Assembly: GCA_034620365.1 (NCBI GenBank)
Contig: JAQGEQ010000201.1
Span: 186,001 to 250,000, forward strand
DNA from: Pegea sp. RAD2-039
Taxonomy: Eukaryota > Chordata > Thaliacea > Salpida > Salpidae
DNA length: 64,000 nucleotides
Reading direction: 5' to 3'
A program made the translations under genes and the position numbers. The notes below the pieces were generated by a model, which did no database searches, was not told the origin of the DNA, and was given only the letters and a program-made list of their open reading frames with translations. This document shows, in pieces, positions 3,365 through 61,846 of the stretch (position 1 is its first letter; each line of letters begins with the position of its first letter).

Positions 3365-6300
3365 ATGTTTTTGAAATTACTTTTTAATGACCGAGAAGCC
3401 TATATACTTGAAGATGAAGGCCTTTCAGTACGAATGCCAGTTGAAACACTCAAAGAATTGGTTTCAAAGTATCTAAGCATTGATGTTGAGTTGCAAAGAC
3501 TGATATTCAGTGGCAAACAAGTCAGCATCCTTTTAATTATCATATAAATCATAATCTTTAGTGATCCTCTTTTTAGCTTAAAGATGGAGATCTTCTATTC
3601 TCTTATGGAATTAAGCATCAAAGCACTATATTAGTGGCTCCAAAACAAAATCTTCAAATTACAGCTTCTAAACCATTTTTTAATCATGATGTTTTTAAAG
3701 TATGTTTTTTTGTCAAATGTAAATATCATTTCTAATCATAATCTTGAGGTGGGTGACGAGGTTTTAGCAAGATGTCAGAAAGCTTGGTTTTGGAAGAAAG
3801 CAATTGTGACTGAAGTTAAATATGAAGTTAAAGAATTGAATTATCGAATTAAATATATTAAGTTAGTAGTGATTGATATTGTGATGTCGTTACTTGTATG
3901 GTGACGTAATTATGTCGTGACGTCATCACTCTTACAGTACAGATGAAACGGAACTTCTTCCGGATATGGAAGTAATTAGTCAAGAACTCTTCTGTCTTCC
4001 TTGGCATGGGATACTTTGGAACACTTCTATGATTATAAGAATCCATTTTAAAGATGAAACTAATCTATATGATGCTGTTGTTTATAAATTGGAATCTCTA
4101 AGAGTTACTGAAGATGACTATGAAAAGATATTAAAAGTTCAGCTGCGGCTTGGGTCAGTGTCAGGTCTTTTTTAATCTCCTTCTAATCTTTTGATCTTGA
4201 TTCAACAGAGATCACCTCTCTCACCCTCTTCAAGTTGATGACTTGAACCATCTTTACGTGATGCCCGACAAACGAAACAATTTAGTCGGATATGATGAAG
4301 GCCCAAGGTTTGCCCCTGTAGTCCCGCATGTCCCAAAACTTGTCCCAGATGAAGTCTTGACTAATCCACCTGAAGGTTTGTGTCCTCCAACTCCCAAAAA
4401 ACCCCTTAAAGCGCGTTCTTAATCGTCAGAAACAGCGGAAGAGGAAAACTGGGAAGACAAATGCGAGGATTGCCAAAAAAGAACGAAAAAAAATTGCAAA
4501 ATATGCGGATGTAGAGGATGCGGAAGACACGAAGATCCACAACACACGTTGCTATGTGACGACTGTGACGCATCATGGCACATCTACTGTCTCCAACCGC
4601 CCCTGGAAACCGTCCCAGAAGACAACTGGTCGGTTGTGACGTCAACATCGCCTTTTTGATGATGTTATCGTGGTTTTAGGTATTGTCCGGATTGTTTTAA
4701 TGATGCGAGTGAAATTGCGGTTGCTGGGCAACGAAAGATCTCGAGAAAGATGAGAGAGTCAAAGAGCTTCCAGCGTGGGATGAAAGGAAGGGATTGGGGA
4801 AAGGTTTAGGGTTTTGAGTGGCCTTCAATTCGACTTTAATGGTTGTTATAAAGGGAATGGCGACAGCAAGCAGAAGGACGACTTGTACTTCAGTAGGAAT
4901 GAATCATGTCGGAAAAATTCCTGGAATTAAAGTGGGATCAAGCTGGAAGTTTCGGATGCAGGTGAGAATGAATATCAGATGATTAAAATCATGTGACTAG
5001 GATTAGGCGGTTGAGATCAGGTGGTTGGGATCAGGTGATTGGGATTATATGAAGATCTTGTATTTAAAGTATTTAAGAAGCTTGAAGATTAGAAGAAGAT
5101 TAAGTTTTGAGTTGAGAGAGTTGATAAAGACGCTTTTTGAATCATAAAAAAGTCTTTGATGATCTTCTATATCTTTGATGTCTAGTGCTCAGAGGCAGGA
5201 GTGCATCGACCTCCAGTTGCCGGCATACACGGTCAGGAGAGGAATGGGGCGTTCTCGATTGTACTCGCCGGAGGATACGAAGATGATCACGTGAGTAACA
5301 CAAAATGTCTGATACAAAACGTCAGGATCCTTTCACAGGATGAAGGTGAAGAGTTTGTTTACACCGGATCCGGTGGTAGGGACTTTGCTGGAAATAAGAG
5401 GATCTCGGATCAATCTTCCGATCAGAAGTTGGAAAAAAACAACAAGTGAACATTTAGTTTTAGTAAAGTGACCACTAAAGGGCGTTGTTTCAGAGCGCTT
5501 GCGGTGACATGTGACGCTGTGTTAAACGCGGAGACAGGCGCTACTGCTTGCGATTGGAAGAAGTCGAAACCGATTCGTGTTCTGAGGAGTTATAAAGCTG
5601 GAAAGAAGAACAATAATAAATATGCGCCAAAAGAAGGGATCCGATATGACGGGATATACAAAGTATCTTGAATTCTTCATCTGATCTTTAAACCTTCATC
5701 TGATCTTTGAACCTTCATCTGATCTTTGAACCTTAATCTGATCTTTGAACCTTCATCGGATCTTTGAACCTTCATCTGATCTTTGAACCTTCATCTGATC
5801 CTTGAACCTTCATCTGATCTTTGAACCTTAATCTGATCTTTGAACCTTAATCTGATCTTTGAACCTTCATCTGATCTTTGAACCTTCATCTGATCTTGTT
5901 CTTCTCTGATCTGTTTCCATTGATGAAACTCACCAACAGGTGGCGCTGTTTGTTTAGATTGTCTCTTATTGGCCGGCGCGCGGCGCATCGGGGTATCGAG
6001 TTTGGAGGTACAAACTCCGTAGAGATGATACGGAACCTGCTCCCTGGACTCCGGAAGGGATCAAGTATATCCGTAAATATGGTCTTTTCATGGAAGAGGT
6101 AATATCGTCCATGTTTTGAAGCATTTGATGATGTCCTCGTTAATGTAGCCTTCAACTGCTGAAGACGAAAAGCGAAAGAGGAAATGTGAGGAAGCTGATG
6201 ATGTCACAGACGGAAAGAAGATGGCTCTTACGTCGTACGAAGTTCCTAAGAAGATCTTGGAACTTGTGGAATGTGATGCCATCAATGCAAAGATGTGGAA

Positions 6301-6662
6301 GACGGTTTTGGACTCAGCTAAAGATGGATATAAGGTCTGATTTAGCGGAAAATTTGTCGACTAAAATGGCGTTTTTCAGAAATATTTTTTAAGTTTTGAA
6401 GAAGCTTTTAAATGTGGAATTTGTCTTCAATTAGTTGTGTTGCCTGTCACTTTAAATTGTGGTCACAACTTTTGCAAGGTTTGTACAGAACTTAAAAGGT
6501 AAATAAATGAGTTGTGGTCCTTCTTAGGCCTGTTTGATGCAAAGTATTGAAAGTGAGGTTGAGTCCTGTGCCACCTGTCGCTGCCCATTCGAAAAACTGA
6601 TCTTCACAAATGAAGACGTCAACCAAAATTTATCAGAATTGTTGAAATTGATGAAGGAATAA
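3365..6662 (+). CDS. UHRF1: E3 ubiquitin-protein ligase UHRF1 (UBL-TTD-PHD-SRA-RING)
   Basis: Nuclear factor that reads hemimethylated CpG and histone H3 and recruits DNMT1. Fifteen exons: 3365-3520, 3577-3699, 3749-3861, 3938-4153, 4209-4375, 4430-4640, 4680-4803, 4854-4961, 5186-5290, 5339-5445, 5494-5662, 5958-6098, 6149-6334, 6380-6478, 6528-6662; sum 2160 nt, 719 aa (human about 793). Domains in order: ubiquitin-like (res 1-75), tandem Tudor (about 93-260), PHD with the [12 protein letters not shown] core (about 285-345), SRA (about 370-585) with GGYEDD, TGSGGRD and the AGNKR finger that reads the hemimethylated site, and a C-terminal RING ([21 protein letters not shown]). The stop is TAA at 6660-6662. 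The exon 6 donor is unusual: it fits best inside a TGACGTCA palindrome (TGAC/GTCA at 4640/4641), which restores the YCPDC of the PHD. Confidence in identity is very high; single splice sites may shift. Confidence 0.95.
5675..5897. repeat. 19-bp minisatellite in UHRF1 intron 11
   Basis: About 11-12 head-to-tail copies of a 19-bp unit (tgatctttgaaccttcatc) with few substitutions, filling most of the 295-nt intron between SRA exons 11 and 12. The words CTGATC and CTTCATC recur in the COX15 intron repeat and in RABGGTA coding sequence. Confidence 0.95.
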
Positions 6663-8696: not shown

Positions 8697-11600
8697 ATGT
8701 TGCAATCAACAAATAATTTTTTTTTCTTTTTGATTTCTATCATTTTTATAAAAAGTAAGTTCAAACAATTGATTGAAATAATCAAACAGAAAATAAAATC
8801 CGTTTATTATTGTAGTTGTTAAATGTCAAACAGATGTATATGATACTCAATACAGGGTAACTGGTTCAAACATCTCATATTCTTGTGGTAGATCATCTAA
8901 TGGCTTCATATCTTGGAAGTTTCAAAAACCTGGCACTTCAGCAATTGTTAAAATAGCAAATTATGCATATGGAATCCCGCATTTTGACATTATGTACAAC
9001 ACACCACCGTAAGATTTTTATATTTGTTACTTTAATACCAAAATACTTTAATATATTAAAAAGTAATTTTTTGAGAAACCATGTAAAAAGGTAAGTTCAA
9101 GGTATGTAATAAAAGAATCTTCAGCAATTATATTTATTAAGACAAGTTGTGTTGGTTAAAAGTTTTTATAAAGCAACGTGAGGCATCCAATGTGTTAATT
9201 TCTACATTGAAAATGAAAATAGAGTCATTGCATTTTTCACTCTTATACCAATGTTTAAAAATGATAAAAATATTTTAAAACTTGAGTAAAAAATGACTAT
9301 TTTTCTTTTAATCTTAAAAATTCTTGAAGTTTTGTAACAGCTAAGAGCTTCGCCGAAGTCTCATTGACTTGTTTTTCATAAAAAGTAAATATTTGAATTT
9401 TTTAAAGTATTTTCTTTCTTCAGAGGAAAACTTTCTTTCCAAAACAACAAATTTGTCATCAAAGATTTGTCTCTTGAAAATGAGGGAATCTATTTTTGTG
9501 AAGCTTTATTCGAACCTGGTTCGCCTATAGTTACAGGGATTGAAAATATGTTGATTATAAGAAAAGTACCAGAAGACTTGAAACTGGACAATATAGATGG
9601 TCCGGAACTAACTGAGAACACCACTGCAAGTATTGCTCGTTGTACACAGCAGGTGAAACATCAAAATTTCAGTTTTAAAAAGAAATCTCAAATTATGTTT
9701 ACATATTTATTTTATTAAATCATTTTATATTATTTCTGCTTAAAGTTTAAGATAAAGATAAATATTTATTAAATAAAACTTGAACATGTTTATTAACTTT
9801 TTAGAAGTTTCTTTAAAACTTTTTATAGCTTTAAAGCAAAAGATAAGATTTCGTTTTTTTTGGAAATATATTCTAATGTCAGCTTTCAAGAGAACAGATT
9901 TTAGAAACAGCTATTTGATTTAACGAAAAAATACAGAAATAAAATATTTTAGGGAATTTTGAACTTTTTTTAAACAGTAAAAACTTAACAAGAAAAAGTA
10001 ATATTATTAAAATTGTTTTAAAAGTTCTAGTAAGACAAAGTACAATTAGATAATAAAATTATCTATATAAATGTTGAAAATAATCTTTTGTGCTTCATTT
10101 GTTCAAATGTTAATATTTTTGTTATTACTCTCATTTAGCTGGCGAGCAATAAATAAAACTTTTGATTAAATTTAATTGCTGTATCATTTTTTACAGTAAG
10201 TAAGTAAAAGAAGTTTGTATTTCGTATTTAGAATTTGATAGTATAAGTAGTTTCTTTATTTAAAAGATTCTCTGGGCTCTTGCAAGCTTATTTCACAACC
10301 GTTTTGTCATAGGCTGGTAAACCCGCAAGCAACCTAACCTGGTATAATGGAACCAAGCGAATATTGCAAGGGGTCAAATACTTTGTTCGTCCTAACAAAA
10401 ACAATGATTTATTGACCGATGCATTTGCTGATCTGACTTTGAATGTTTCCTTATATGATCACCATCGTAATTTCACGTGTAGAGGTGAACACGTGACTTT
10501 GAAAGAAGCCCAACAAGCTGACTACTTCGTCAAAATCAGATGTAAGTTGCTTTGTTTAGCTTCTTGCTGTTAATGTAGTTGTTTTGAGTACAGACAGCCC
10601 TCGTGACGTGAGAATTTGGGCGAACACGACAAAAAAAGAAGTTTATTGTGAAGCAAATTCATATCCGAATTCAACTTTTGATTGGGTGAGTTTTCGATTA
10701 ACATGATCAGACTGTTCCAAGGGTCCCCAGATTCGTTTTGAACTTTGTAGTCGAGAGTTAAGATCCCTGATTATCGTTCCAAGGGTCCCAGATTCGTTTT
10801 GAACTTTGTAGTCGAGAGTTAAGATCTCTGATCATTGTTTCAAGGGTCCCAGATTCGATTTGAACTTTGTAGTCGAGAGTTAAGATCTCTGATTATTGTT
10901 CCAAGGGTCCCAGATTCGTTTTGAACTTTGTAGTCGAGAGTTAAGATCTCTGATTATTGTTCCAAGGGTCCCAGATTCGTTTTGAACTTTGTAGTCGAGA
11001 GTTAAGATCTCTGATTATTGTTCCAAGGGTCCCAGATTTGCTTTGAACTTTGTAGTCGAGAGTTAAGATCTCTGATTATTGTTCCAATGGTCCCAGATTT
11101 GTTTTGAACTTTGTAGTCGAGAGTTAAGATCTCTGATTATTGTTCCAAGGGTCCCAGATTCGATTTGAATTTTGTAGTCGAGAGTTAAGATCTCTGATTA
11201 TTGTTCCAAGGGTCCCAGATTCGTTTTGAACTTTGTAGTCGAGAGTTAAGATCTCTGATTATCGTTCCAAGGGTCCCAGATTCGTTTTGAACTTTGTAGT
11301 CGAGAGTTAAGATCTCTGATTATTGTTTCAAGGGTCCCAGATTTGTTTTGAACTTTGTAGTCGAGAGTTAAGATCTCTGATTATCGTTCCAAGGGTCCCA
11401 GATTCGATTTGAACTTTGTAGTCGAGAGTTAAGATCTCTGATTATTGTTTCAAAGGTCCCAGATTCGATTTGAACTTTGTGGTCGAGAGTTAAGATCTCT
11501 GATTATTGTTCCAAGGGTCCCAGATTCGTTTTGAACTTTGTAGTCGAGAGTTAAGATCTCTGATTATTGTTCCAAGGGTCCCAGATTCGTTTTGAACTTT

Positions 11601-14600: not shown

Positions 14601-16370
14601 AGTTAAGATCTTTGATCATTGTTGCAAGGGTCCCAGATTTGTTTTGAACTTTGTAGTCGAGAGTTAAGATCTCTGATTATCGTTTCAAGGGTCCCAGATT
14701 CGATTTGAACTTTGTAGTCGAGAGTTAAGATTTCTGATCATTGTTCCAAGGGTCCCAGATTCGTTTTGAACTTTGTAGTCGAGAGTTAAGATCTCTGATT
14801 ATCGTTTCAAGGGTCCCAGATTTGTTTTGAACTTTGTAGTCGAGAGTTAAGATCTCTGATTATCGTTCCAAGGGTCCCAGAGTCGATTTAAACTTTGTAG
14901 TCGGGGAGTTGAGATGTCTGATTATTGTTCCAAGGGTCCTAAATTCAACTTGAACTTGGGATTTCTTTTTTTATGATATCATTTCTCTATTTTTAATCTC
15001 ATCACTTTCTACTTTTACAGATCATTCCAACTGACAACGAAATCAAAGACAAGTCGACACTTTTCATCAGCAACTTAATGACGATGCCCGGTTATCAGGA
15101 GTTTCAGTGTACTGCTAGTAATGGGGTTGGAAAGCCAGTGACAACCTGGATCATGGTCGATGATCTCAGGTATCCAGGCGGAAGTGAGTTCTGTGATTTT
15201 GACCTCTCATCAACTTTTTATCTTCATCATGTAGTTTGATTGAGATCTAATTATCTGAATGAAAGAGGTTTCCCCAGAACTGGAAATTGATTTTTTGTAT
15301 TTGCGCTTCTACTAGCACTTCGATTTACTCTAGTAAAGATCTTTGCTCTTTACAGAACCCTCTTTTTTGGGGCTTGCTCATACTTCTTGGTATATCATCG
15401 CTGGAACCACAGGAGCAGTGATCTTAATTCTCTTCATCATCTGCTGCGGTTGCTGTTGCCGAAAAAAGAAGAAGAAGAAAGCCTTAGCATCTGATCTTGA
15501 GTAAAATTCTTCCAATTTTTATCTTCTGGTTTTAATCTCTTGTTTTTACTTTTTTATCTTCATCTTATAATCTTCATCTTTTGATTTTCATTCTTGTCAT
15601 CTTTAGCACAAGTGTTCGTTACGGAGTCGATGTCAACTTGCAACCAGTTGGGGAGCCGATGACGTCATCAACGCGATACGAGAACGAATATTCGCTGAAA
15701 AGATCTCCGTCTTTAGAGAGTTTAGTCGAACGGAAGTTAAATCGCGCTCCATCGCGAGAAGAACTCGATCAGGTGATGACGTCAACATTATGTCGCTTCC
15801 ATGGTTCAAACTTTGTTTTGTAGGTAGCAGGACATATGCAAGAGCTACTGTCGAAGAGCTGGGATAATTTAGCTCGCTCACGTGACCAATTGAATCGATC
15901 ACGTTATGACGTCACAACAGACGAGCCCCCGCGCTACAAGCCGCGTGATGACAATCCGCGATTTGTCTCATTAGTAAGTTGTTGACGTCATCATCTCATC
16001 TACATCATCGTTTGTTTTCATAAGGAACGTTTGAATGACGTCACCGAATCTGAAGACCCGTGTCCTTACGCTGATGACGTCAGCGACGGGTAATCACCTA
16101 ATTGAAAACGTCAATGTTTTGATGACGTAATTGTTTACAGCGCGATTCATCGGCATAGCTCATATCACCCTGATAACGACCGCTACGATCGAAATCAATA
16201 TGACAACAGGTTGGTGATGACGTCACGTGCTACTGATGACGTGATATTATAATCATGACTTCATCTTTTAACCCCACAGATATCGTCATGAAGAAGAATT
16301 TGATGATTTCAGCTCTACTGATGACGAACAGCGTCGTTATGACGACTACCCGCGCGCACATATTGTTTGA
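8697..16370 (+). CDS. Immunoglobulin-superfamily single-pass membrane receptor
   Basis: Type I cell-surface protein, probably an adhesion receptor. Twelve exons: 8697-8754, 8816-9008, 9424-9652, 10313-10541, 10594-10685, 15021-15183, 15356-15500, 15607-15772, 15824-15973, 16025-16089, 16141-16209, 16280-16370; sum 1650 nt, 549 aa. Residues 1-19 are a signal peptide (Phe/Ile-rich). Ig1 spans about 20-130 (ISYSC..., then ENEGIYFCEA), Ig2 about 135-235 (GKPASNLTW...FTCRGE), Ig3 about 240-315 (EVYCEANSYP...FQCTASNGVGKP). A membrane helix (about 335-357) is followed by Cys-rich and poly-Lys juxtamembrane sequence and a 180-residue charged tail. The tail holds KLNRAPSREEL, which resembles an RPEL actin-binding motif, and ends in AHIV. 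The Ig arrangement is nectin/Kirre-like, but I cannot assign an orthologue. Exons 8-12 are much more CpG-rich than exons 1-5, and four TGACGTCA copies are translated. Confidence 0.85.
9761..10233 (+). repeat. 480-bp direct duplication, copy B (IgSF intron 3)
   Basis: Second copy of the 7284-7763 sequence, lying inside the receptor's third intron (9653-10312). The copies share the stretch ending in tacagtaagtaagtaaaag, and both stop just after cgtatttaga, which defines a sharp right boundary. Confidence 0.9.
10703..14960. repeat. 61-bp satellite array, about 70 copies, inside IgSF intron 5
   Basis: Tandem unit of 61 bp carrying the invariant core tagtcgagagttaagatc and the variable segment ttccaagggtcccagatt. 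Variation is mostly C/T and A/T at fixed positions. The array fills almost all of the 4.3 kb intron that separates the two halves of Ig3 (after DW, before IIP). Diagnostic variants (gggcccc followed by gatctaaac) near 11637 recur near 13591, about 32 units apart, and a 122-bp dimer pattern (gttgcaaggg) appears near 13890-14640, so the array has higher-order structure. Confidence 0.97.
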
Positions 16371-16408
16371 CACTACACACTGATGACGTCATTATGGTGA
16401 TGACGTCA
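15660..16408. promoter_or_regulatory. TGACGTCA palindrome cluster in IgSF tail exons, introns and 3' flank
   Basis: Nine copies in 750 bp, starting at 15660, 15777, 15907, 15983, 16036, 16075, 16218, 16384 and 16401. Four lie in exons (read as MTS, DVT, DVT, DVS), three lie within 10 nt of 5' splice sites, and two flank the stop codon downstream. The word equals a CREB/ATF site; its actual role is unknown. Confidence 0.8.
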
Positions 16409-18660: not shown

Positions 18661-18957
18661 ATTTTTCCTGTTATTTATATTATTAATATTATATGTAATT
18701 GTTCACTATTAAATGCTTTTGGGACTACTGAAATTCCATGTGTTACATCTTTTGCTTTCTATATTTCTAACTTAATTTTATATAATAGGTATTATTTGTA
18801 AGAATGTGTGTTAGTGAGAGGTGCTCTTTTCAGGTAGCGTCCTTTGCGTTTATTGTAATAAATAATAATATAAAAATAATAAATAATTATAATAAATTAA
18901 TTAATTATTAACTAATAAATAAGCCGGCTAATAAAGAGTTGGCAAATTATTTAAACA

Positions 18958-18993
<36 letters not shown>

Positions 18994-22550: not shown

Positions 22551-25134
22551 ATGTTTTTTCAAAACACCAAAAACTTCGCGTTCAAAGCTCTCAAGGCTTC
22601 CCGGTTACAAGTAAATTCCTTTTGCATTCTCATCAACCTTATGACGTCATCACTTTGCGTTATAGTGCCACCAAGTGATCAGAAAAACAACGACAACAAC
22701 AGTTGAAACAAATCTGATCAAAAACAAACAGAAACTAGTTGGTGGTTGGTTAGCAACTTGTGCAGGACTTGTAAGTAGCTCTCGCGTACTTGAAAGTCCT
22801 CTAAACCCTATTCCTGCAGACTGTAGGCGCCGTAGTGATCGGTGGAGTGACACGCTTGACTGAATCCGGTCTTTCCATGGTTGATTGGCATCTAATAAAA
22901 GGAATGAAGCCTCCAACATCGGATGAAGAATGGAGGAAGGAGTTCGACAAATATAAACAATTCCCTGAGTTTAAAATGTCCAAACCCCGTCAAATTGTCA
23001 CCTGATCCCGATCTTATGTAATCAATTACAGATTGAATCACGATATGACTCTGAATGAATTCAAATTTATTTGGCGAATGGAATATGGTCACCGTATGTG
23101 GGGCAGGACAATTGGTCTTTGCTACCTGCTTCCTTTTGGCTACTTTTTGTCACGTGGTTATTTAAATCGAGCCATGAAAATTCGATGTTCTATTCTCGGC
23201 TCTTTGATTTGTTTTCAGGTAACTGTGACAATATCACTGCTTAATGACGTCATCAGCATTTGCATAGTGACGTTTTCATGTGTTTTGTTGTCAGGGCTTT
23301 TTGGGATGGTATATGGTCAAAAGTGGATTGAAATTAGAAGAAACTTCAAAAGATCAAATTCCGCGCGTTAGTCAATATCGGTTAGTTAGTGACATCATCA
23401 CTTTCTGATCTTCATCACCTTCTGGTCTTCATCACTCCCTGATCCTCATCACTTCCTGATCTTCATCACTCCCTGATCCTTATCACTCCCTGATCTTCAT
23501 CACTCGCTGATTCTCATCACTTCCTGATCCTCATCACTTCCTGATCCTCATCACTTTCTGATCCTCATCACTTCCTGATCCTCATCACTTTCTGATTTTC
23601 ATCACTTCCTGATCTTCATCACTCCCTGATCCTCATCACTTTCTGATCCTCATCACTTCCTGATCTCCATCACTTCCTGATCCTCATCACTCCCTGATCC
23701 TCATCACTTCCTGATTCACATCACGTCCTGATCTCCATCACTTTCTGATCTCCATCAATCCCTGATCTCCATCACTCCCTGATCTTCATAACTCCCTGAT
23801 CTTCATCACTTCCTGATCCTCATCACTCCCTGATCCTCATCACTTCCTGATTCACATCACGTCCTGATCTCCATCACTTTCTGATCTCCATCAATCCCTG
23901 ATCTCCATCACTCCCTGATCTTCATAACTCCCTGATCTCCATCACTCCCTGATTCTCATCACTTCCTGATCCTCATCACTTCCTGATCCTCATCATTTTC
24001 TGATTTTCATCACTTCCTGATCTTCATCACTCCCTGATCCTCATCACTTTCTGATCCTCATCACTTCCTGATCTCCATCACTCCCTGATCCTCATCACTC
24101 CCTGATCTTCATCACTCCCTGATCCTCATCACTCCCTGATCCTCATCACTTCCTGATTCACATCACGTCCTGATCTCCATCACTTCCTGATCTTCATCAC
24201 TCCCTGATCCTCATCACTTTCTGATCCTCATCACTTCCTGATCTCCATCACTCCCTGATCCTCATCACTCCCTGATCTCCATCAATCCCTGATCTCCATC
24301 ACTCCCTGATCTTCATAACTCCCTGATCTTCATCGCTCCCTGATCCTCATCACTTTCTTCACTTAATGATTCTTAAATTCTCATTTCTTTCTCATCATCT
24401 GATCCTCTTTAGATTAGCGGCTCACTTAGGATCAGCCTTTCTCTTCTATTCTGGACTTTTATGGACATCTCTAACCCATCTACTTCCACCTCGCCCCATC
24501 ACAACACCCAAGATGCCCCTAAAAAGCCTCCGACGACTCGCCATGTCAACCAAATCTCTCGTCTTCCTCACAGCCCTCTCAGGTTACCTCTAAATGTCCC
24601 CCAATTACGTCAACAACTTTTTTCTGCACCCGCAGGAGCGTTTGTAGCTGGTCTGGACGCAGGTCTGACCTACAACAGTTACCCGCTGATGGCGGGCAGA
24701 TTTTTCCCTACAGACCTCTTCGCCTTCAAACCAACTTGGCTCAACTTCTTCGAAAATCCGACTACAGTTCAATTCGATCATCGAATTCTGGTTTGATGAC
24801 GTCACTACCGAACATTTGATGACGCCATGTTTGTAGGGGCACGCTACTTTGGGGCTGGTGACGTACACATGGATTAAAGCGCGATCGACGCCCGGGCTTC
24901 ATTCGCGCGCGCTAGTTGCTTCTAACTTGATGATGACGATGGCTTTGATACAGGTGAGTTGATGACGTCATGAATATATTTGATGATGACGTCATCATGT
25001 AGGTTGGACTGGGTATCACCACACTATTGACGTATGTTCCCACCCCAACTGCTGCAATGCATCAATCTGGGTCTCTGGTTCTTCTTTCAACTGCTCTTTG
25101 GTTTTCACATGAGCTTAGAAAGATTCCAAAATAA
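22551..25134 (+). CDS. COX15: Heme A synthase COX15
   Basis: Inner-mitochondrial-membrane enzyme that oxidises heme O to heme A for cytochrome c oxidase. Nine exons: 22551-22610, 22666-22770, 22820-22977, 23032-23218, 23295-23380, 24413-24582, 24636-24790, 24837-24953, 25003-25134; sum 1170 nt, 389 aa. Blocks match human COX15 in order: [83 protein letters not shown], and [10 protein letters not shown] near the end. The heme-ligating histidines in EYGHR, AAHLG, FDHR and MHQSG are present. The N-terminus ([18 protein letters not shown]) is a plausible presequence. Intron 5 (23381-24412) is a minisatellite. Five TGACGTCA copies lie in the introns and one just downstream. Confidence 0.97.
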
Positions 25135-25217
25135 CAAATAACTTTCTGGGCCATTTCTATAAAAAGATTTTTTCGCCTGGTGGTTTATAGTGACATCACG
25201 CTCTGCTGATGACGTCA
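22642..25217. promoter_or_regulatory. TGACGTCA palindromes in COX15 introns and 3' flank
   Basis: Copies start at 22642, 23245, 24797, 24963, 24987 and 25210. Intron 8 (24954-25002, 49 nt) holds two, so palindromes make up a third of it. All avoid the COX15 exons, unlike the situation in PCSK7 and HMBOX1. Confidence 0.75.
23390..24358. repeat. 18-bp minisatellite filling COX15 intron 5
   Basis: About 54 copies of an 18-bp unit, consensus ctgatcctcatcacttc plus one base, with variants at the two pyrimidine blocks. Blocks of variants recur (for example the ttcacatcacg unit at about 23713, 23850 and 24154), showing internal duplication of longer segments. Confidence 0.95.
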
Positions 25218-28980: not shown

Positions 28981-31011
28981 ATGAAGATCTTTCTTCTGCT
29001 CTTCATCACTTTTACTTACTCCTACAAAGTTGAAGATCACCTAATTACTAATGACGTTACACGGCTGTGGTCAGTACAACTAGTGACGTCATCAATTAAC
29101 GCGTCACTTATTGCTAAGCAACTAAACCTAACAAACTTGGGTCACGTGGTTCACGATCACTACGTCTTTTCATCAGGTGTTGATGACGACGCTAATCACG
29201 TCACAACACGACTACGACTTCATCAAAAAGTCATTTGGTTTGAACAGCAACGCGTGTTGACACGTCATAACCGATTACGTCATCAAAATTTTGACGACCC
29301 GCTTTTCCCGTTTCAATGGCATCTCCATAACAACCGAGGACTCGATCTGAACGTCACTGACGTCTGGCTTCACAACATCACTGGTGATGACGTCATTGTC
29401 GCGATAGTCGATGACGGCGTTGAATGGCGCCACCCGGATTTAATTGAGAACTTTAGCGCTTCTGCAAGCTTTGATTTAAATGGAGATGATGACGACCCGT
29501 CACCAGAAGCTTCGGTGACGTCACGAAACCAACACGGCACCCGGTGCGCAGGTGAGGTGGCCGCAGCTCCGAATTCAGTCTGCGGTGTTGGAATCGCGTT
29601 TAAGGCGCAATTTGCTGGAATCCGAATTCTCGATGGATTATTGACAGACGCGTTAGAAGCAGCGGCGTTCTCGCGACGCGCTGACGTCATCGACATCTAC
29701 AGTTGCTCATGGGGTCCGGAAGATGACGGGAAGACAGTCGACGGGCCCCATCGACTTGCAGAACGCGCGTTACAGCATGGCGTGGTTGCCGGACGACGAG
29801 GTTTCGGTTCGATCTACCTGGTCGCTAGTGGCAACGGAGGGGACAAGCAAGATAATTGTAACTATGATGGATACGCATCATCGATTTATACAATTACCAT
29901 AGCAGCCGTCGATGAATTTGGGAATTCCCCATCATACGCAGAAGGATGTACTTCAATGATCACGGCTTCTCTCAGTAGCGGGACTTCCCCCTCGTTACCA
30001 CGTGCCCGCTCCATAGTAACCACCGATTGGTCGGCTGCTAAAGGCTCGACTTGTACACATGACTTTAGTGGTACCTCAGCTGCGACGCCTCTAGCCGCCG
30101 GAATCGTAGCTCTGATGCTTCAAGTGCGCCCTTGTCTCACGTGGCGTGACGTTACTCATCTAATCGCAATCACATCGCGACAGCTCGTGACGTCATTACC
30201 GAATCAAGCTGGCTATCGTCATAGCAACGCACTTGGGTTTGGACTGATGGATGCGTGGCGTTTAGTGAATGCTGCGAAGGTTTGGACTTCGATTCCATTG
30301 ATGACGTCACTGAAAATCGCGAGTGGTGAGCGTAATCTGCATATTGCTGATCACGTGGTTACTAAACTAGTTGTGACGCAGCAAGAGGCTGATGACGTCA
30401 TGTTAGCGACAATTGAACACGTGATCATCACTGTTGACGTCACACACGAGTCACGTGGTCGACTGAAATACGTCATCATATGTCCGAGTGGTACTTTATC
30501 AGTGATTAAATCACGACCACGTGACAAATCAAGCGATGGATTAAATAATTGGCGGTTTAGTACTGTCCGTTGCTGGGGGGAAACCCCGGTAGGTGAATTC
30601 CAGCTAAAAATTATTGATAGCAGCAAGTCCAAAAGTGGCTTTCTCGTAAAATGGCATCTGACTGTTTACGGATCTTCGATGACATCACATGAATTAAAGT
30701 TGCGTCGCTCATTGGTTGAGAAATCATACAGCGGTCGTCATATCGATGATGACGTCACAGACTGTCCACTTGGCCAGCCATTATCCTATGACGTGACAGC
30801 CGTGTTGTCTGAACGAACTTTGAAGTTTATTTCTTTAATTTCTGGATTTTTACTTTTTTGGACTCTTTACAATTTGGCCGAGGATATTTTGTGCGGAGTC
30901 AAATTGAAGTCGACTCATGTGACTCGAGATGGTTATAACACGATGACAACTGTTGGTGGGGAAGCACCTGTCGTAGATCAAGTTGAAATGGTCAATATAG
31001 AAGCTTTGTAG
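28981..31011 (+). CDS. PCSK7: Proprotein convertase subtilisin/kexin type 7
   Basis: Membrane-bound serine protease of the late secretory pathway that cleaves precursors after basic motifs. Single exon, 676 aa. Signal peptide 1-15; prodomain to about 100, with RHNRLR as the likely autocleavage site; S8 catalytic domain about 105-435 with Asp144 (AIVDDGVEWRHPDL), His185 (HGTRCAGEVAA), oxyanion Asn285 (ASGNGGD) and Ser366 (SGTSAATPLAAG); P domain about 445-565 (FSTVRCWGE); transmembrane helix about 612-633; short cytosolic tail. The blocks DIYSCSWGPEDDGKTVDGPH and LMLQVRPCLTWRDV are those of PCSK7 rather than furin. It has no introns although most neighbours have several, and its coding sequence is CpG-rich and contains nine TGACGTCA palindromes, one within the codons just before catalytic Asp144. 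Confidence 0.98.
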   Translation: MKIFLLLFITFTYSYKVEDHLITNDVTRLWSVQLVTSSINASLIAKQLNLTNLGHVVHDHYVFSSGVDDDANHVTTRLRLHQKVIWFEQQRVLTRHNRLRHQNFDDPLFPFQWHLHNNRGLDLNVTDVWLHNITGDDVIVAIVDDGVEWRHPDLIENFSASASFDLNGDDDDPSPEASVTSRNQHGTRCAGEVAAAPNSVCGVGIAFKAQFAGIRILDGLLTDALEAAAFSRRADVIDIYSCSWGPEDDGKTVDGPHRLAERALQHGVVAGRRGFGSIYLVASGNGGDKQDNCNYDGYASSIYTITIAAVDEFGNSPSYAEGCTSMITASLSSGTSPSLPRARSIVTTDWSAAKGSTCTHDFSGTSAATPLAAGIVALMLQVRPCLTWRDVTHLIAITSRQLVTSLPNQAGYRHSNALGFGLMDAWRLVNAAKVWTSIPLMTSLKIASGERNLHIADHVVTKLVVTQQEADDVMLATIEHVIITVDVTHESRGRLKYVIICPSGTLSVIKSRPRDKSSDGLNNWRFSTVRCWGETPVGEFQLKIIDSSKSKSGFLVKWHLTVYGSSMTSHELKLRRSLVEKSYSGRHIDDDVTDCPLGQPLSYDVTAVLSERTLKFISLISGFLLFWTLYNLAEDILCGVKLKSTHVTRDGYNTMTTVGGEAPVVDQVEMVNIEAL

Positions 31012-31041
31012 CTGGTGACGTCATCGTATAAAGTGACGTCA
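29084..31041. promoter_or_regulatory. TGACGTCA palindromes throughout PCSK7 and its 3' flank
   Basis: Eleven copies, starting at 29084, 29388, 29516, 29682, 30188, 30302, 30393, 30435, 30750, 31016 and 31034. Four coding copies are read as VTS or MTS and five as DV plus Ile/Met/Thr; the last two are within 30 bases of the stop codon. Confidence 0.8.
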
Positions 31042-35649: not shown

Positions 35650-36770
35650 TGACGTCATCTGATTATTATGTCATCAGCCTCGTATGTTAGTGAGGTCAAG
35701 AACTTAGTTGAGAAAAGAAAAACTTTATGATACCGATAATGACTTCATCAAAACGATTTTGATATGTCATGACGTCATATTCCGCTATTTCATTGAAGAC
35801 GTGAGGCAAAATTTGACTTAATAATTATACCGTCAGACATCGGTGACGTCATCATTTTTCTTCACTTTATCGTCATTCTCCGGTTGCTGTGGCAACAGCA
35901 GAGTGTTGTTGATGACGTCATCATGATTAGAAGAAGATGATGAGGCGACGCTTTCAGATCGAGCTGTTGATGACGTCATCACAGGGATTTTATGACGTCG
36001 GCTCATAAACCATGCGCTGACTTGATTGGGCGAAATCGGTTCAACACGCGCGCTAATACCTTGACTACGTAATTGAGTTTGGATCATATCAGTACAGTTG
36101 GTCGCGATGCTTTTCTTGATGACGTCATTGGGAGTCGGGTCAGTTTGAAAATACTCTTCGAGAAAATTCTCGCAAGCAAGTGGCCAATAAGAATCGGCTT
36201 GAGTGGTTGCTAGGTTACGACGCAATAACAACGAATTGTTGTTGTTTACTAGGGAATTGAAACTACTTCCGGTTGTCGTAGCAACCAGGATGTTGACTTG
36301 ACGACGCTCGCGTACATACCAGTCGTAGAGGATTCGAATTTTACGAAAATTTCGACTTCTAGGATTGAGCAGCCAGGTGGAGATGTAAGGCTGACTGAGC
36401 CTGTTATCGGTTGCCTTGACGATATACGACTGCGTGATCTTGTACTCGCTCATAAATTCCTGGATCTCTTTCTTAACTTCCTGTACGTCACGCTTGAGTA
36501 GATCTCGGACTTCCGGATCTAATTCATCTAATTCGGCGACGCTTATTGATTTCGTCAAATTCTGCAGCGGAATTGAATGGCCAGGTGATGACGTCATAAT
36601 ACCACCATTCTCGTATTTAGCGTAGGGGTCTTGACGACCATAAACCATGCTAGCATATGGATATGTTTCACTGACGTCATTAGCGGTTGGTGTATCAAAC
36701 GTTGATGACGTCATATGCGGCGAATCCATCGATTCACGGCGACGTTTGATTCCAGCTTTTAATGACGTCA
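35650..36770. promoter_or_regulatory. TGACGTCA palindromes in HMBOX1 and its 3' flank
   Basis: Ten copies, starting at 35650, 35770, 35844, 35913, 35971, 36120, 36589, 36672, 36706 and 36763. Eight are coding: four read as MTS and four as DV plus Thr, Ile or Ser. Two have the full 14-bp TGATGACGTCATCA form (around 35913 and 35971). Confidence 0.8.
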
Positions 36771-36984
36771 TCGACGTGTTTCCATTGACAATTGATTCTG
36801 AGTTTGCTGTGAAGCCGTTGCTAGGGAAGTCAAAAGGCTGTTGATTGAAAGAGAGTTCAGCTGAGATCCCTTTTAGTTCATCAATCTGTCGGAGTCCCGC
36901 ATAAATCTGGTCATCCGTCATCCCCGTGTTTCTCAATTCAGTTAGAAGATAGATCTGCTTGACAGTGAACTTTTGTGATGTCAT
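35833..36984 (-). CDS. HMBOX1: Homeobox-containing protein 1 (HMBOX1/HOT1-like), divergent homeodomain
   Basis: HNF1-class transcription factor; vertebrate HMBOX1/HOT1 also binds double-stranded telomeric repeats. Single exon, 383 aa (human 420). N-terminal dimerisation-like block FTVKQIYLLTELRNTGMTDD (residues 6-25); POU-specific-like domain about 160-230 with LDPEVRDLLKRDVQEVKKEI and QPYISTWLLNP; atypical homeodomain about 268-337 ending in QVSAWFMSRRHK. The recognition-helix position that is Asn51 in nearly all homeodomains is Ser here (WFMSRR, codon AGC), a change likely to alter base contact. The linker and C-terminal tail are Ser/Asn/Asp-rich and low complexity, and they hold most of the translated TGACGTCA words. 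Like PCSK7 it lacks introns and is more GC-rich than its surroundings. Confidence 0.9.
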   Translation of the reverse strand: MTSQKFTVKQIYLLTELRNTGMTDDQIYAGLRQIDELKGISAELSFNQQPFDFPSNGFTANSESIVNGNTSMTSLKAGIKRRRESMDSPHMTSSTFDTPTANDVSETYPYASMVYGRQDPYAKYENGGIMTSSPGHSIPLQNLTKSISVAELDELDPEVRDLLKRDVQEVKKEIQEFMSEYKITQSYIVKATDNRLSQPYISTWLLNPRSRNFRKIRILYDWYVRERRQVNILVATTTGSSFNSLVNNNNSLLLRRNLATTQADSYWPLACENFLEEYFQTDPTPNDVIKKSIATNCTDMIQTQLRSQGISARVEPISPNQVSAWFMSRRHKIPVMTSSTARSESVASSSSSNHDDVINNTLLLPQQPENDDKVKKNDDVTDV

Positions 36985-39900
36985 CGCTCCTACGTCATAA
37001 ATGAAAATAAAAATTTGCTGAATTCAAGCTGAAATAAAAAAAGACAGAATCGTCACTAACCTTGATTTATAATCTTTTATCTTTCTATTTATACTGAAAA
37101 AAGTTATTTTATTATAAAGAAAATCTTTTTGTAATATTTAGATATTGCAGAAATTGTTTACATCATTAAAAAAAAGTATTTTTACAATATTTTTTGTTTC
37201 TAATTTCTTGTGTAAACAATCTAGATAAAGTTTATTTGAAAAACAATTTTTTAAATTCATTAAATTTATACAAATTAAAATTCAAAAATGATAATTTATC
37301 AAACAGAAAAAGATAGATAAAAAAAGTTAAAAACTTTGAAAATTTGCTGAAATGATTTTTTAGTTGAGAAATTTGGTCAAGTTTAAAAGTTTGAAAATTC
37401 AAAGCAAACAAAAAAGTTGAAAAATAAAATCTCTTAGTTGAATACTGGTTAAGTGATAAAAATAAAATTTGCTGAATCAACAATTTAAATTGAGATTAAA
37501 GATAAATAATATCAGGAAGTATTTAATCAAAAAACATTTCAACAAATTTCTGAATGAGACGAATGATTGATAAATTGACTGAATATTATTTGAAAGCAGC
37601 TGGCAAAAAAGCTGGTAGAAAAAATTCCGAAAGTCATTAAATATTCATTGTTGAAGACTTCTAAGATGAAATTGTTTTGCAAATAAAAAAGTTTATGGTT
37701 CTATTGACGTCATTTATAAAATATAATCAGTAAATGAATGTTCTTGATAAAAAATTGCGCAAAAATAAAAGATAGTTGAAAAAAATACTTAAATTCTAAA
37801 AAAAAAGTAAAAAAGCTAATAAGATAATATTTCAGATAAAAAACTACAAATTTTTATACAAATAAAAAAATTTTAACAATTTTTAATGTAAATATTATCA
37901 CTAAAATCTAATTATATTTATTCATTAAAATTATTTACAACGAAAAACATCTGACCAAGCTTAAAAAATTTCTCAAAGTTTTCATTAAAATGCTTTTAAA
38001 ATGTCAAATGCAACCTTAAATATAGTTTGTTTGATAGATAGATATTTAAACAAATAATGATAAAAAATGCACAAATATATGTTGTTTATATTATATTAAA
38101 ATAAAACATATGTTTGAAAAAAAATTATTTAAAAATAAATGTTATCTATAAATATTTAGAGCTTTGATATATGCTAAAAAATAATAAAAAATATTTTTAA
38201 ATTTTTCAAAAATGAGAAACAAGAAAATCAAAGTAAATGTACAAAGAAAGTTAAACTTTTTTTATAAAGAATTAAAATAAACCTAATTTAAGAATAATTA
38301 ATATAATGGTAGTAACAATCATTAAAAAAAATAATAACTATTAAATAATCTAATATAATATTTAATAATACATTAAATAAGAATTTGCTGAGAAATTCCA
38401 AAAAAAATATAAATAATGTCAGATAAGCATCAAATACAAAAACATTTGATCAAAATTAAATCATTCTGATTATCAACAAATTATCTATTTTTAAATCTAA
38501 AATAAAATTTAAATGTCAACATAACAATTAAGATCAAAATGGAAAATAGAATTTTATACATTTGAATAATATTGATTGATTTTCAAAAATTTGACAAAAA
38601 TTTTGTCAGAACTATTTTTAAGACAGCATTTTTGAGAAAAAAACATTTTTGAAAATATGTTTATAAAAAAACTTCAGAACTTAATGATTATGTAAAAATT
38701 AAGAAAACTTTTGAGGTAAAACTAATAAAAAATATAAATATAATGAAACAAACAAAAAATAATAAATTTTATTTTCATCATTTAAAATACTTCAAATTGA
38801 AAATTAGATTTTAAAGCACAATCAATTTTTACAATACAAAAAAAGTAAAAAAAATAAATATTTAAAATATATTTTATAACTATTATACAATTATTAAAAA
38901 AGCTATTTTAGATATAAAATAAATATCGAGAAATATACAATAAAAATATAAAAATCAAAACCAAAAAAATGTAGAAATAAAATTTTTATTGATACATACC
39001 TTTATTATCTGAATTCTAGAAGATGTTAATAGAAAAATCCGATTTAAGTTAAAAAAGACGATAAAATACAAGATGGTTGGAACACATGATACGAAAAATG
39101 AGTTTTCTAGTTAAGAAGCAAATATTCTATTTAATTGATTGTCCGGCCTTAATATACTTAAACCAATTTGTTTCGGTATATTCTTGTCTTATGCAAATAT
39201 AAGTAATATACAATTTTTTAGATATAATCTTTGAATTTCTTCACGTGTTATTTATTGAGTATAATAAAAGTATTTTACTATAAAAGAGAATTGAAATGCA
39301 CATCGATAGTAATCAAAACAAAGAGATAGCGATCTTGAAAAAAACATATTTTTAGACGAGGCTTATACTATGATGTTTTGAGGTAGAATCTCATAACAAG
39401 TTTTAAAAAAATGTTCAACCTTATAAAAAGTGAAAATATTTTTGGCTTTTAGTGATCCATCATAGCTGTTTTTATAAAAAGGCATTGGTCGTGTGGGATA
39501 CTTTACTTTTTCAATAAAATTATTTATAGAAATATACTTTTAGCTGAAGTTGACAGTATTTACATTGTGAAAACATAAAATGAAAAAAAAAACTTTGATA
39601 ATTATTTAATAACATTTTTAAAATATTTGTTATATACTTTATAATAGTATCATTTTATCTTACGATAAAATTACAGTATTTGCAATGTAAGAAAATATAA
39701 ATAATACAAAATGTATTGTACTGTGAAGAGAATATATATTAAAGAGTTGTTACTTCATTTACGGGAATATAATCCTCATAAGATTCGAAATGAAATAACT
39801 TTGGAAAATATCAATGATAATTTAAAGTAGTTTTTTTAGTTTTTTTATTGTTTGAGTTTTATCTCATTTTTTAGTTGTATTAAACATTGATAATTTAATT

Positions 39901-43523: not shown

Positions 43524-43950
43524 TGACGTCATCAAACAACAACGTCATCATCACGTCAAACTGTTGATTAAAAAAATTAAATTGAAGAAATTTACTTCTA
43601 GATTAGAAATATCTTTTATAGTAATAAAAAAAGTTGTTTTTTATTTGTAAATATACTTGATAAATTTGTTATTAAAAAACAAAAATATTTATTTTATTAG
43701 TTTTTATACTTTATTTTTTTCTTTAAATATTTTATTTAAACCAAATTAAATTTTGTTTTTGAAATTTTAATTTTTTTTTTAATTTCATAAGAATATGTCT
43801 TTTCTCGTGAATAATTTTCATAAATTGCCAAAAAAAGCAGTTGTTGAAGCGGTGATGACGTCATCAGCGACTGCTTTTGCTTCACAACAATCTTTTAACA
43901 ACACTCTAGCTCAGCTGGTGACGTCATTCCATTTTTGTTTGATGACGTCA
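43524..43950. promoter_or_regulatory. TGACGTCA cluster around a small ORF
   Basis: Copies start at 43524, 43856, 43919 and 43943, an abrupt return of the palindrome after 6 kb with almost none. Confidence 0.7.
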
Positions 43951-49004: not shown

Positions 49005-49453
49005 TTTTTTGTTTATTGTAAAAGTTTGTGAATAAAAATATTTTTTTTTGTATGTAGTTTCCAAATCAATGAAATTTTTAGTAAATTTTAGAAACAAAAG
49101 ATTTTATGAATATTTTTTAAACTGTTTTTAAAGTGGATTTTTTATGAATCAAATTTGATAAATCAGTTTCAAAAATTTTCATATAAATACAAAATAAGTA
49201 AAAATATTTTTATATTTTCAAACATCAAATAGATTTGAAATAATTTTTTTGATTTCGAAGATTATTTCATAAAATCATTAAGTTGAATAAGTTCATCAGT
49301 TTGGCAAATTGTTGCTATTAAAGAAAAAGATCAGATAAATGGAAATTTAAAAATGACCAAAATAAGCTAGGATAGATCAAGAGTTTTAAAATTAGAAAAG
49401 TTTCTTTGCAGCAAAAATTAAACTTGAATGAGGGAAAATTTAAGATTCAAATT
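49005..49453. other. 3' ends of convergent SDE2 and SLC35G1-like genes
   Basis: AT-rich spacer between two convergent genes; no feature is recognised beyond presumed 3' UTRs. Confidence 0.6.
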
Positions 49454-56126: not shown

Positions 56127-58103
<1,977 letters not shown>

Positions 58104-60149: not shown

Positions 60150-60258
60150 ATCTAACCAATTAGAAGCAAGAACAGATTTGAATCTAACCAATCAGAAGCA
60201 AGAACAGATTTGAATCTAACCAATTAGAAGCAAGAACAGATTTGAATCTAACCAATCA
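60150..60258. repeat. 32-bp tandem repeat at the RABGGTA stop codon
   Basis: Three full units plus a partial one (tctaaccaatyagaagcaag followed by aacagatttgaa). The fourth, partial unit contributes the last codons (LIG) and the TAG stop of RABGGTA, so the repeat expanded from the gene's own 3' end. Confidence 0.93.
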
Positions 60259-61846
60259 AGTTTGGAATCAGCAAGCATATTCGCTCATATCCAGGATTGC
60301 CTTCAACTTCAATTTGTTGAATTTTCAGACAACTTTTTACAACTTCCACAAACTGGTCTTCGCATTCGATCAAATTCCTCCGGAGTTCAACAACTCTCAA
60401 TCTTGGAAGAGCACAAAGTCCTGTAACATCCCGGATGCGGTTATCATTTGCTTTTAACACCTCCAATTGCTTCAAGCATCGAAATTTTGCGTTTATCGCT
60501 TCCAGAAGATTTCCACTCAAATCCAAGCACGTGATCAAACTGAAATACGGTGCGCAGTGGAGCGTAGAAATTCGTAGACCAATCAAATCGATGCATTGCA
60601 CTTCGTTGGTTTCTATGGCAACCAGCTTCTGTTCTATCTCAAATTTGCTCCCAAGATCACGATAATATCCAATTCTCATTGAATCAACCTCCATCAATTG
60701 ATCAATTAAAGATTTGACTTTCAAATAATTCTTAGAAGGATTTATTTTTCGAAGTAGTAAGATCAGAGTCAGAATCACCCATTTATTGTCAGGTTCAATC
60801 TCATTTAGTTCCTCTAAAAGACACTTTTCTTGGATCAGAAGATCTCTTCTTTCATCGCCGACTTGATCTCCGATCACGTGATGATAGAAAGTCCTACTGA
60901 CGTCATCACCTGACGTGAAGTCAATGATGACGTCATTAAACTGAATACGAAGTTTAGTTGGATGTTGAAGATTTAAAAGACACTGATATTGATTGCTCCC
61001 AATATGCTCCCAGTTAATCTTAATTTGATCTTCATCTGATCCAGTTTTGATCTTTATCTGATCTTCATCTTTATAAACTTTAATCTTCTGAAAATCTTCA
61101 TCTTTTAACAGCCTATTAAAGACAAAAATGAAATGAGTGGATGTTGCTTGAAAACAGATCAAATGAAGATCATCCTGAGTTCCTAGTAACCAGCGGTAAT
61201 AGAACCACGCGCTCTGATCATTAGGGTCCGTGAAAAAAGCGTTCTTTGCGAGTGCTAGTTCGCGATTGATGACGTCATCAGAAAGCGTACAAAGCATGTG
61301 GTTAGAGAGAAGTTTACTCCTGTAATGAAGTGATGAGTAGTTAGAAAAGCTTTTGCTGATCAGATCTTCAGTGAATTTCAATTCAGTCGAAGTTGTGACG
61401 TCACAATGACTAACAACGAAACGACGATAATCCCAGCAGTGAAAATTCCGTCCATCAATCTCTAAATACGCGTCACATAGCTTCAACTCTCGCATCCAAT
61501 CACAAGATTCCATTTGCTCAGTCACCCAGCAACGGTGGTGCCAAGCTGAATATGATTTGGGATTTCCCCTAAGTCGTTCCTCAGCCAGTTCCAATTCTTT
61601 GTTTAAATCTTCTGTTTTTTTATCTTTGAAAAATCTTCTTCTGTAATTCCACATTGTGTAAATATCTGCACATGCACTGAGAGCTTTACCGCTCAGTTTC
61701 ATTCCTTCTTCATCATATATATTATGTTGGATCTTATTGAAGACTTGAGTTGTTATTTGTTGAAATATTGCAACTTTTTTGGATTTTTCTTTCTTGATTT
61801 CTTCTTCTCTTTGTTTACTGGTTTTTATTTTTAATCTTCCGTGCAT
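60248..61846 (-). CDS. RABGGTA: Rab geranylgeranyltransferase subunit alpha
   Basis: Alpha subunit of GGTase-II, which together with REP adds geranylgeranyl groups to Rab C-termini in the cytosol. Single exon, 532 aa (human 567). Starts MHGRLKIKTSKQREEE, the same start as the human protein. PPTA helical repeats: MWNYRRRFF, NPKSYSAWHHRCWV, NFHCWDYRRFV, NYSSLHYRSKLL and DPNDQSAWFYYRWLLG (residues about 55-220). A variable middle replaces the vertebrate Ig-like insert and contains a duplicated DEDQIKIK motif. Then EPDNKWVILTLILLLR, and C-terminal leucine-rich repeats (LITCLDLSGNLL, LEVLKANDNRI, LRVVELRRNLI). Four TGACGTCA words are translated (60898, 60928, 61270, 61396), all as DV plus Ser, Ile or Thr. 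Intronless, like PCSK7 and HMBOX1. Confidence 0.97.
   Translation of the reverse strand: MHGRLKIKTSKQREEEIKKEKSKKVAIFQQITTQVFNKIQHNIYDEEGMKLSGKALSACADIYTMWNYRRRFFKDKKTEDLNKELELAEERLRGNPKSYSAWHHRCWVTEQMESCDWMRELKLCDAYLEIDGRNFHCWDYRRFVVSHCDVTTSTELKFTEDLISKSFSNYSSLHYRSKLLSNHMLCTLSDDVINRELALAKNAFFTDPNDQSAWFYYRWLLGTQDDLHLICFQATSTHFIFVFNRLLKDEDFQKIKVYKDEDQIKIKTGSDEDQIKINWEHIGSNQYQCLLNLQHPTKLRIQFNDVIIDFTSGDDVSRTFYHHVIGDQVGDERRDLLIQEKCLLEELNEIEPDNKWVILTLILLLRKINPSKNYLKVKSLIDQLMEVDSMRIGYYRDLGSKFEIEQKLVAIETNEVQCIDLIGLRISTLHCAPYFSLITCLDLSGNLLEAINAKFRCLKQLEVLKANDNRIRDVTGLCALPRLRVVELRRNLIECEDQFVEVVKSCLKIQQIEVEGNPGYERICLLIPNLIG
60898..61403. promoter_or_regulatory. TGACGTCA palindromes in RABGGTA coding sequence
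   Basis: Four copies in about 500 bp, one (61270) in the full TGATGACGTCATCA form. All are read in the D-V-x frame, in loops between PPTA repeats or in the variable middle. Confidence 0.75.

Follow-up and report, generated by a model that had tools for sequence, protein, structure and literature searches.

Why should a single palindromic octamer, TGACGTCA, recur far above chance along the genes of an animal? The question is raised by a 64,000-nucleotide stretch of the salp Pegea sp. RAD2-039 (positions 186,001 to 250,000 of the forward strand of contig JAQGEQ010000201.1, assembly GCA_034620365.1), hereafter the window. An earlier note on this DNA had estimated by hand about 48 copies of the word where about 0.5 would be expected at roughly 30% GC. 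The count is exactly 48, 100 dinucleotide shuffles give a mean of 0.50 copies and a maximum of 3, and the GC content of the window is 30.5%; the last copy ends at 61403, as the note had it, while the first begins at 3918, one base before the start that it gave. The word was also rightly recognized as a CREB/ATF site, having the exact core with its central CpG. Our preferred reading, held tentatively and with a probability of roughly 0.42, is that CREB/ATF-type bZIP proteins bind densely to unmethylated DNA along gene bodies and that the copies are kept by weak selection.

The excess extends to the whole assembly (105.7 Mb, 387 contigs), in which TGACGTCA occurs 27,792 times (mean 0.263/kb), compared with 969 copies of its mirror ACTGCAGT, 694 of the CpG palindrome AGTCGACT and 2,917 of TCAGCTGA. 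A 14-mer form, TGATGACGTCATCA, is found 1,972 times and its mirror not once; in the window its five full copies lie where the earlier note had seen them (near 24987, 35913, 35971, 43856 and 61270), with none among the other 43 of the 48. Within the window, the octamer is the commonest of all 256 palindromic 8-mers, followed by AAATATTT with 45 copies, and some 8-mers of minisatellite arrays outscore it there by z-score. In being a palindromic octamer whose genome-wide count lies far over expectation, TGACGTCA resembles a highly iterated palindrome (HIP).

To gauge this excess we used an unselected sample of 17 stretches of 10 kb (170 kb), picked by place regardless of the word. It holds 71 copies, against 1.1 expected under Markov-1, 1.1 under Markov-2, 4.8 under Markov-3 and 14.9 under the Markov-4 model that had been proposed as the check, the last value being inflated by TGACGTCA itself. 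The observed count is 66 times the Markov-2 expectation, and the word has the top z-score among all 8-mers. With models fitted locally over 1 kb, 119 copies stand against 2.0 (Markov-1) or 3.3 (Markov-2), a 36–60-fold excess; since the excess persists under such models, we reject an artefact of composition. Among 15 other palindromes, nine are at no more than threefold of the local Markov-1 expectation or below it, the exceptions being TCACGTGA (8.5-fold), ACGTACGT (5.2-fold, 3 copies), ATCGCGAT (5.1-fold), TCAGCTGA (4.5-fold), TGCCGGCA (3.6-fold, 1 copy) and CAACGTTG (3.2-fold).

The copies are spread unevenly. Three of the 17 unselected stretches carry 66 of the 71 sites, eight carry any and nine none. 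The window, at 0.75/kb, has about 2.9 times the mean density of the genome without being unique, as the stretch L020 holds 37 copies in 10 kb and is thus denser. The earlier note had set two outcomes against its proposal, an observed/expected ratio near 1 and an exceptional window; neither was found. Among the matches listed, word-rich genes seem to be grouped in blocks of 100–300 kb with poorer stretches between them, as on contig C1 at about 2.01–2.15 and 3.53–3.87 Mb. Sample counts rest on the 17 unselected stretches alone, CpG/GC profiles on these stretches plus the window. The loci L001–L004, fetched because they bear the word, were left out of the pooled sample and of the CpG/GC, flank, gene-model, near/far-word and dipeptide statistics, and the last four of these are biased towards dense DNA because L022 and L023 were chosen for their dense sites.

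Site density follows base composition, rising from about 0.1/kb at 20–30% GC to 4.1/kb at 45–50%, and GC content falls from 0.44 adjoining the sites to 0.26–0.28 more than 800 bp away. With the sites' own bases removed, the observed/expected ratio of CpG is 1.35 at 0–15 bp, 1.02 at 30–100 bp and 0.53–0.72 beyond 400 bp, such that CpG depletion is gone around the copies and back within about 400 bp. The same contrast appears in GC-matched 500-bp bins, likewise without the sites' own bases (0.86–1.02 with sites, 0.52–0.69 without). The sites thus lie in CpG-island-like DNA, with a ratio near 1 in a CpG-depleted genome. This bears out the placement of the word in genes and CpG-rich patches proposed earlier, and the retention of CpG is best matched, among the roles then suggested, by a "chromatin or methylation anchor".

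A CREB-type binding protein is suggested by this profile together with a sharp cliff between the perfect word and its neighbors, the company of other factor-like words, the lack of an AP-1 excess, and the presence of a CREB1 orthologue. Perfect and one-off matches together number 64,917 in the genome, so that the 24 one-off neighbors average 1,547 copies, compared with 1,154 for neighbors of a control word, and the perfect word is 18 times commoner than its mean neighbor. This ratio is not that of a neutral decay of old copies, which at steady state would give about one excess neighbor per perfect copy; we find about one third against the control-word baseline and about 0.6 against the far-sequence expectation (44 per 221 kb, scaled to the genome). 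Under mutation–selection balance, the usual theory would need no more than a weak force, about 3 in scaled terms, to hold an 18-fold ratio, be it selection or conversion bias.

One-off words number 55 against 14 expected within 200 bp of sites, and 53 against 44 farther away. The most raised near sites are altered at positions 2 or 7 (TTACGTCA 13-fold, TCACGTCA 6.5-fold, TAACGTCA 5-fold), those altered at positions 3 or 6 are not raised (0, 1 and 1 copies), and the methylation-decay product TGATGTCA is raised 4.2-fold without being dominant. Base preferences and tolerated variants are expected to differ between a CREB-type dimer and AP-1, and the AP-1 word TGAGTCA stands at expectation (0.9-fold) within 200 bp of sites. 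The flanks of 158 sites, two sides pooled, have A or G in 93% at −1, G in 50% at −2 and T in 54% at −3, and the extended half-site TGATGACG occurs 25 times near sites against 1.2 expected.

Two further words share these zones, presumably an E-box of the USF/MITF type (GTCACGTG and TCACGTGA) and an X-box-like word of the RFX type (GGTTGCTA). GTCACGTG is at 39 times expectation within 200 bp of sites and 12 times farther away, and CACGTG lies within 200 bp of a site in 31 of 55 cases, in zones that make up 12.7% of the bases. The E-box palindrome (TCACGTGA/GTCACGTGAC) co-clusters with TGACGTCA; TCACGTGA has 4,614 copies in the genome and its mirror 237. E-box copies in the window stand at 16222, 29141, 30450 and 56481. 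GGTTGCTA is raised 28-fold within 200 bp and is at 0.7-fold beyond, and in the 254-kb sample 12 of its 14 copies are within 201 bp of TGACGTCA (window positions 36205 and 36279, and L009, L011, L020, L022 and L023). Two other candidate companions were rejected: the octamer ATGCAAAT beside E-boxes is barely enriched near sites (4 against 2.3), and the ETS-like CAGGAAGT is not specific, being raised at a distance from sites as well as close to them. A helical spacing of neighboring sites was likewise dropped, as the peak lies at 20 bp among 56 forward pairs taken from the first of 5,280 places on contig C1 and at 17–18 bp in 23 close pairs from the window, L011, L020, L022 and L023; common to both sets is a broad excess at 16–21 bp (24/56 among the pairs listed, where a flat spread would give 10.8, and 10/23), with no pair below 11 bp.

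The genome encodes a CREB1-type bZIP exon whose three matches in the PDB are all CREB; further bZIP exons are presumably Jun-, Fos/ATF3-, XBP1- and C/EBP-like. DNMT1-like enzymes are encoded too. From these observations we infer that CREB binds the word, that the DNA is unmethylated and that weak selection maintains the copies, which might work as follows. TGACGTCA would serve as a full-strength site for a CREB/ATF-type bZIP protein, repeated along the exons, short introns and near flanks of some genes, where dense binding would keep or mark the word-bearing genes as unmethylated, open DNA, and factors of the E-box and X-box would share the zones. New copies would arise through ordinary substitutions, in coding sequence too where the protein tolerates them, and each could be retained for adding slightly to occupancy, while in a bound zone CpG loss by methylation would be prevented. 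A study of mouse neurons states that methylation of the motif blocks CREB1 binding and that CREB1 sits almost only in unmethylated CpG-island promoters (PMC9729108).

Several observations weigh against this reading. The frequencies of TpG and CpA do not drop close to sites, which leaves little of the deamination complement that methylated surroundings should produce, and since these dinucleotides do not mirror the CpG profile, past methylation is a guess. Whether the sites keep CpG or CpG-rich DNA keeps the sites is indistinguishable here, and the split between word-bearing, CpG-retaining and word-free, CpG-depleted genes is a trend rather than clean (4839–6340 has a CpG ratio of 1.1 and no site). 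Central C/G variants, expected to be poor binders, are raised near sites as well (TGAAGTCA 3.6-fold, TGAGGTCA 1.8-fold, and TGATGTCA as given above), as plain decay would produce. The excess of GTCACGTG is not confined to the neighborhood of sites, TGACGTCA is six times commoner than the E-box word TCACGTGA, which goes beyond a model of shared zones alone, and three long coding frames carry 2.5–7 sites/kb along their whole length.

These coding copies deserve separate attention. The three frames, encoding a furin-like protein, an HNF-1_N domain and the alpha subunit of Rab geranylgeranyltransferase, hold 21 sites, which occupy only the two reading frames that avoid a TGA stop; synonymous resampling yields 1.3–1.8 sites for the three together and never more than 9 in 2,000 draws. 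For other genes, we relied on a home-made gene finder trained on six frames, whose RNA-free predictions (genes with <180 coding bases were dropped) contain errors such as two missed introns in a COX15-like gene and one gene fused with the frame of a long interspersed nuclear element (LINE). The exons of 16 predicted site-bearing genes hold 45 sites, where the synonymous expectation is 2.0 (maximum 6 in 400 draws). The dipeptides that the word spells (M-T-S, D-V) are enriched in the same genes, with MT at 25 against 8.1, DV at 57 against 30.6 and TS at 58 against 36.4. Dipeptides unrelated to the word are also partly raised (EV 43 against 25.8, DL 55 against 42.4), so that the DV and TS excesses are only partly driven by the word, and the MT excess is its clearest dipeptide effect. 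Alignment to relatives could be scored for seven of nine furin sites and two of four in the transferase, the HNF1 alignment being weak and left unscored. Eight of these nine copies stand in columns without gaps; the exception, at codon 403 of the furin frame, adjoins one, and one transferase site has a gap five residues upstream. The gap-free columns indicate that the coding copies came mostly from substitution at tolerant positions of conserved domains and not from insertion, which contradicts the "insertion bias" among the roles first proposed.

Such invasion of exons recalls HIP1 of cyanobacteria, which also occurs in coding sequence, and the boldest reading, in our view unlikely, is that Pegea holds an animal counterpart: a methylation-sensitive word of which a genome-wide, protein-altering force at the DNA level maintains tens of thousands of copies, and which would split genes into word-bearing, CpG-retaining and word-free, CpG-depleted classes. 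The two words share the form of an octamer palindrome, a large genome-wide excess, and one-off words biased by position. Unlike HIP1, TGACGTCA is clustered in some genes, with nothing of the even spread of about one per kb, and no site-specific methyltransferase was found to go with it: none specific to TGACGTCA was identified among 11 DNA_methylase matches in the genome, three of which were scanned in Pfam and all three of which proved DNMT1-like, with BAH and methylase domains. In HIP1 genomes, by contrast, the word is present about once per kb, and GATC/CGATCG methyltransferases that match it are generally encoded (PMC4390886). As a separate observation, DNMT1-like single-exon frames of about 830–870 codons occur in L024, L025, L026 and L027 and on contigs C32 and C52, and the L027 copy lacks the PCQ motif found in L024 and L026.

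Also doubtful are ordinary regulatory sites in a compact genome, that is, intragenic promoters or enhancers built from the cAMP response element (CRE), E-box and X-box, with the exonic copies incidental. Companion words do co-cluster, and predicted introns are short (median 49–57 bp in four of the five loci listed; 133 in L021). Yet 2.5–7 sites/kb over coding frames and 37 in one 10-kb stretch exceed what promoters need, and predicted exons are twice as dense in sites as DNA outside predicted genes. The finder places 47 of 158 sites in exons (0.66/kb), 68 in introns (1.53/kb) and 43 elsewhere (0.31/kb), figures that include the two stretches picked as dense; exons and introns alike carry the word, as first noticed. 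Sites are also spread along coding frames. The earlier view that such placement argues against ordinary promoter sites was fair, while the co-clustered factor-like words make a regulatory reading stronger than it allowed.

A drive acting on the DNA itself, in which site-directed repair or a bias of gene conversion makes and keeps TGACGTCA, as has been proposed for cyanobacterial HIP1, and the word has little function of its own, is about as probable and strikes us as unlikely too. The sharp cliff would fit it, as would the 0.3–0.6 excess neighbors per perfect copy where neutral decay would leave about 1, and so would the exonic excess over synonymous expectation; indeed, a HIP1-like repair drive accounts for the cliff and the exonic invasion as well as the CREB reading does. 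Elhai's repair model makes such a route conceivable (PMC4390886). That model saturates near one site per kb, however, at odds with the crowding of 66 of the 71 sampled sites into three of the 17 stretches, a drive on a single word does not predict co-clustered factor-like words, and no site-specific methyltransferase was identified among the DNA_methylase matches examined.

Two explanations are very improbable. One is a signal of splicing or short introns, with palindromes marking or pairing intron ends. In the 16 site-bearing predicted genes, introns carry 4.8 sites/kb and exons 2.3; among predicted introns of 35–70 bp, 21 of 123 carry the word, which in 17 of these 21 introns starts within 15 bp of the predicted donor. 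The other 102 short introns are without a site, the donors are themselves predictions, and a signal of this kind does not cover the 21 copies that three long coding frames contain, so that the "splicing-linked signal" of the earlier note holds for many short introns and fails for those frames. Pairing of intron ends by two palindromes was rejected because only some short introns have two copies. The other, equally remote, is a meiotic recombination-hotspot motif whose GC-biased conversion raises local GC and CpG; the fission-yeast M26/CRE is an ATF-bound hotspot site and the GC gradient around TGACGTCA would suit it, but conversion is expected to erode hotspot motifs, not to accumulate them.

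Spread of the word by a mobile element, an introner or some other repeat can practically be dismissed, for although the preferred spacing of 16–21 bp might hint at one, the contexts are unique, no site lies in any segment that an all-against-all comparison of the sequence examined showed to be duplicated (L028, which repeats part of the window, was excluded), the coding copies align almost without gaps, and the best 8 of 150 LINE matches listed (29.1 kb) contain no site where the genome mean would give 7.7. The window's tandem arrays scoring at least 150 contain none either, in keeping with the earlier statement that the copies are neither tandem nor part of a larger repeat. We thus disfavor splicing, mobile elements and composition alike. 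One LINE family, whose frame measures about 1,024 codons (e.g., L035), scores nearly equally at many places, which suggests recent activity.

In the window, the word falls into the six patches described before, with 9, 6, 11, 10, 4 and 4 sites, and four remaining copies. Two of the latter are exact matches at 3918 and 4637 (3918..4644), one at 37705..37712 has AT-rich surroundings, and one at 56485..56492 lies in a predicted 49-bp intron on the minus strand, where GTCACGTG overlaps it. The nine sites of 15660..16408 lie, as judged by eye, over exons for the cytoplasmic tail of a membrane protein and their short introns; the finder assigns four to exons and five to introns, in a model that wrongly extends into the LINE frame at 17443–18132. 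Six sites in 22642..25217 cover the COX15-like gene, in which two putative plus-strand introns, missed by the finder, were read by eye: one of 46 bp (24791..24836), with TGACGTCA 6 bp past the donor and the one-off TGACGCCA near the acceptor, and one of 49 bp (24954..25002), with two copies, one close to each end (24963, 24987). Of 11 sites in 29084..31041, nine lie within the uninterrupted plus-strand frame of a furin/kexin-type proprotein convertase (28981..31011; 4.4/kb), and of 10 in 35650..36770, eight are in the minus-strand frame with the HNF-1_N domain (35833..36987; 6.9/kb). Three of the four sites in 43524..43950 fall in one short frame, where they read VMTSS, LVTS and LMTS. The four in 60898..61403 belong to the minus-strand frame of the Rab geranylgeranyltransferase alpha subunit (60248..61846; 2.5/kb), two of them in a part not aligned to the PDB relative. 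The furin, HNF1 and transferase frames were identified through Pfam and PDB. The Pfam scan covered 9 of the 19 window frames listed, and the other ten overlie the tandem array at 32.6–35.4 kb.

Large minisatellite arrays occupy 10713–14957, 23395–24355 and 32803–35389, with units of 61, 17 and 18 bp, and the 17-bp array has an exon of the COX15-like gene on either side. Word-bearing and word-free genes stand side by side in the window, which speaks against contamination, and the stretches L012, L016 and L021, with their predicted multi-exon genes, contain no copy of TGACGTCA, so that both kinds of gene coexist in one genome. There are 71 homeodomain matches in the genome, and the HNF-1_N and furin genes are likewise of animal type. 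Protein-kinase genes are grouped on contigs C265, C75, C21 and C160 and look like tandem expansions.

Set beside known systems, the word and its reader are textbook material, while the density and exonic placement look new. The canonical CRE has the same 8-bp palindrome, central CpG and A/G-preferring flank, but in the salp it outranks every other 8-mer of the sample and crowds exons and introns alike. Promoter words of vertebrate CpG islands include the CRE, E-box and TCTCGCGA; here too the CRE, TCACGTGA and, weakly, TCTCGCGA (6 against 1.0) occur in CpG-retaining zones, yet NRF1-like TGCGCA, YY1-like and ETS words show no enrichment specific to the vicinity of sites, and the zones run through gene bodies. 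Duons similarly place factor-type words within coding exons, whereas here one word visibly shifts dipeptide usage, and bacterial DNA-uptake sequences are also short words iterated in a genome, without any uptake biology in the present case. A survey of nine organisms reports no positional bias of the CRE in sea squirt, fly and worm, the question there being position and not genome-wide excess (PMC1796609). In literature seen mostly as titles and openings of abstracts, with subscription papers little covered, the papers listed included no report of iteration of TGACGTCA or of a genome-wide, exon-invading excess in an animal genome, and the main text of an Amphimedon promoter paper mentions neither CREB, ATF, TGACG, ACGT nor palindromes.

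If the sites are bound and keep the DNA unmethylated, Pegea would offer a natural, countable system for the protection of CpG by transcription-factor sites, and also a test of how far a DNA signal can push the choice of codons and amino acids. If instead a bias of repair or conversion makes the word, this would be, to our knowledge, the first such case in an animal. CREB binding and repair or conversion bias would each bear on the old question of why genomes hold highly iterated palindromes.

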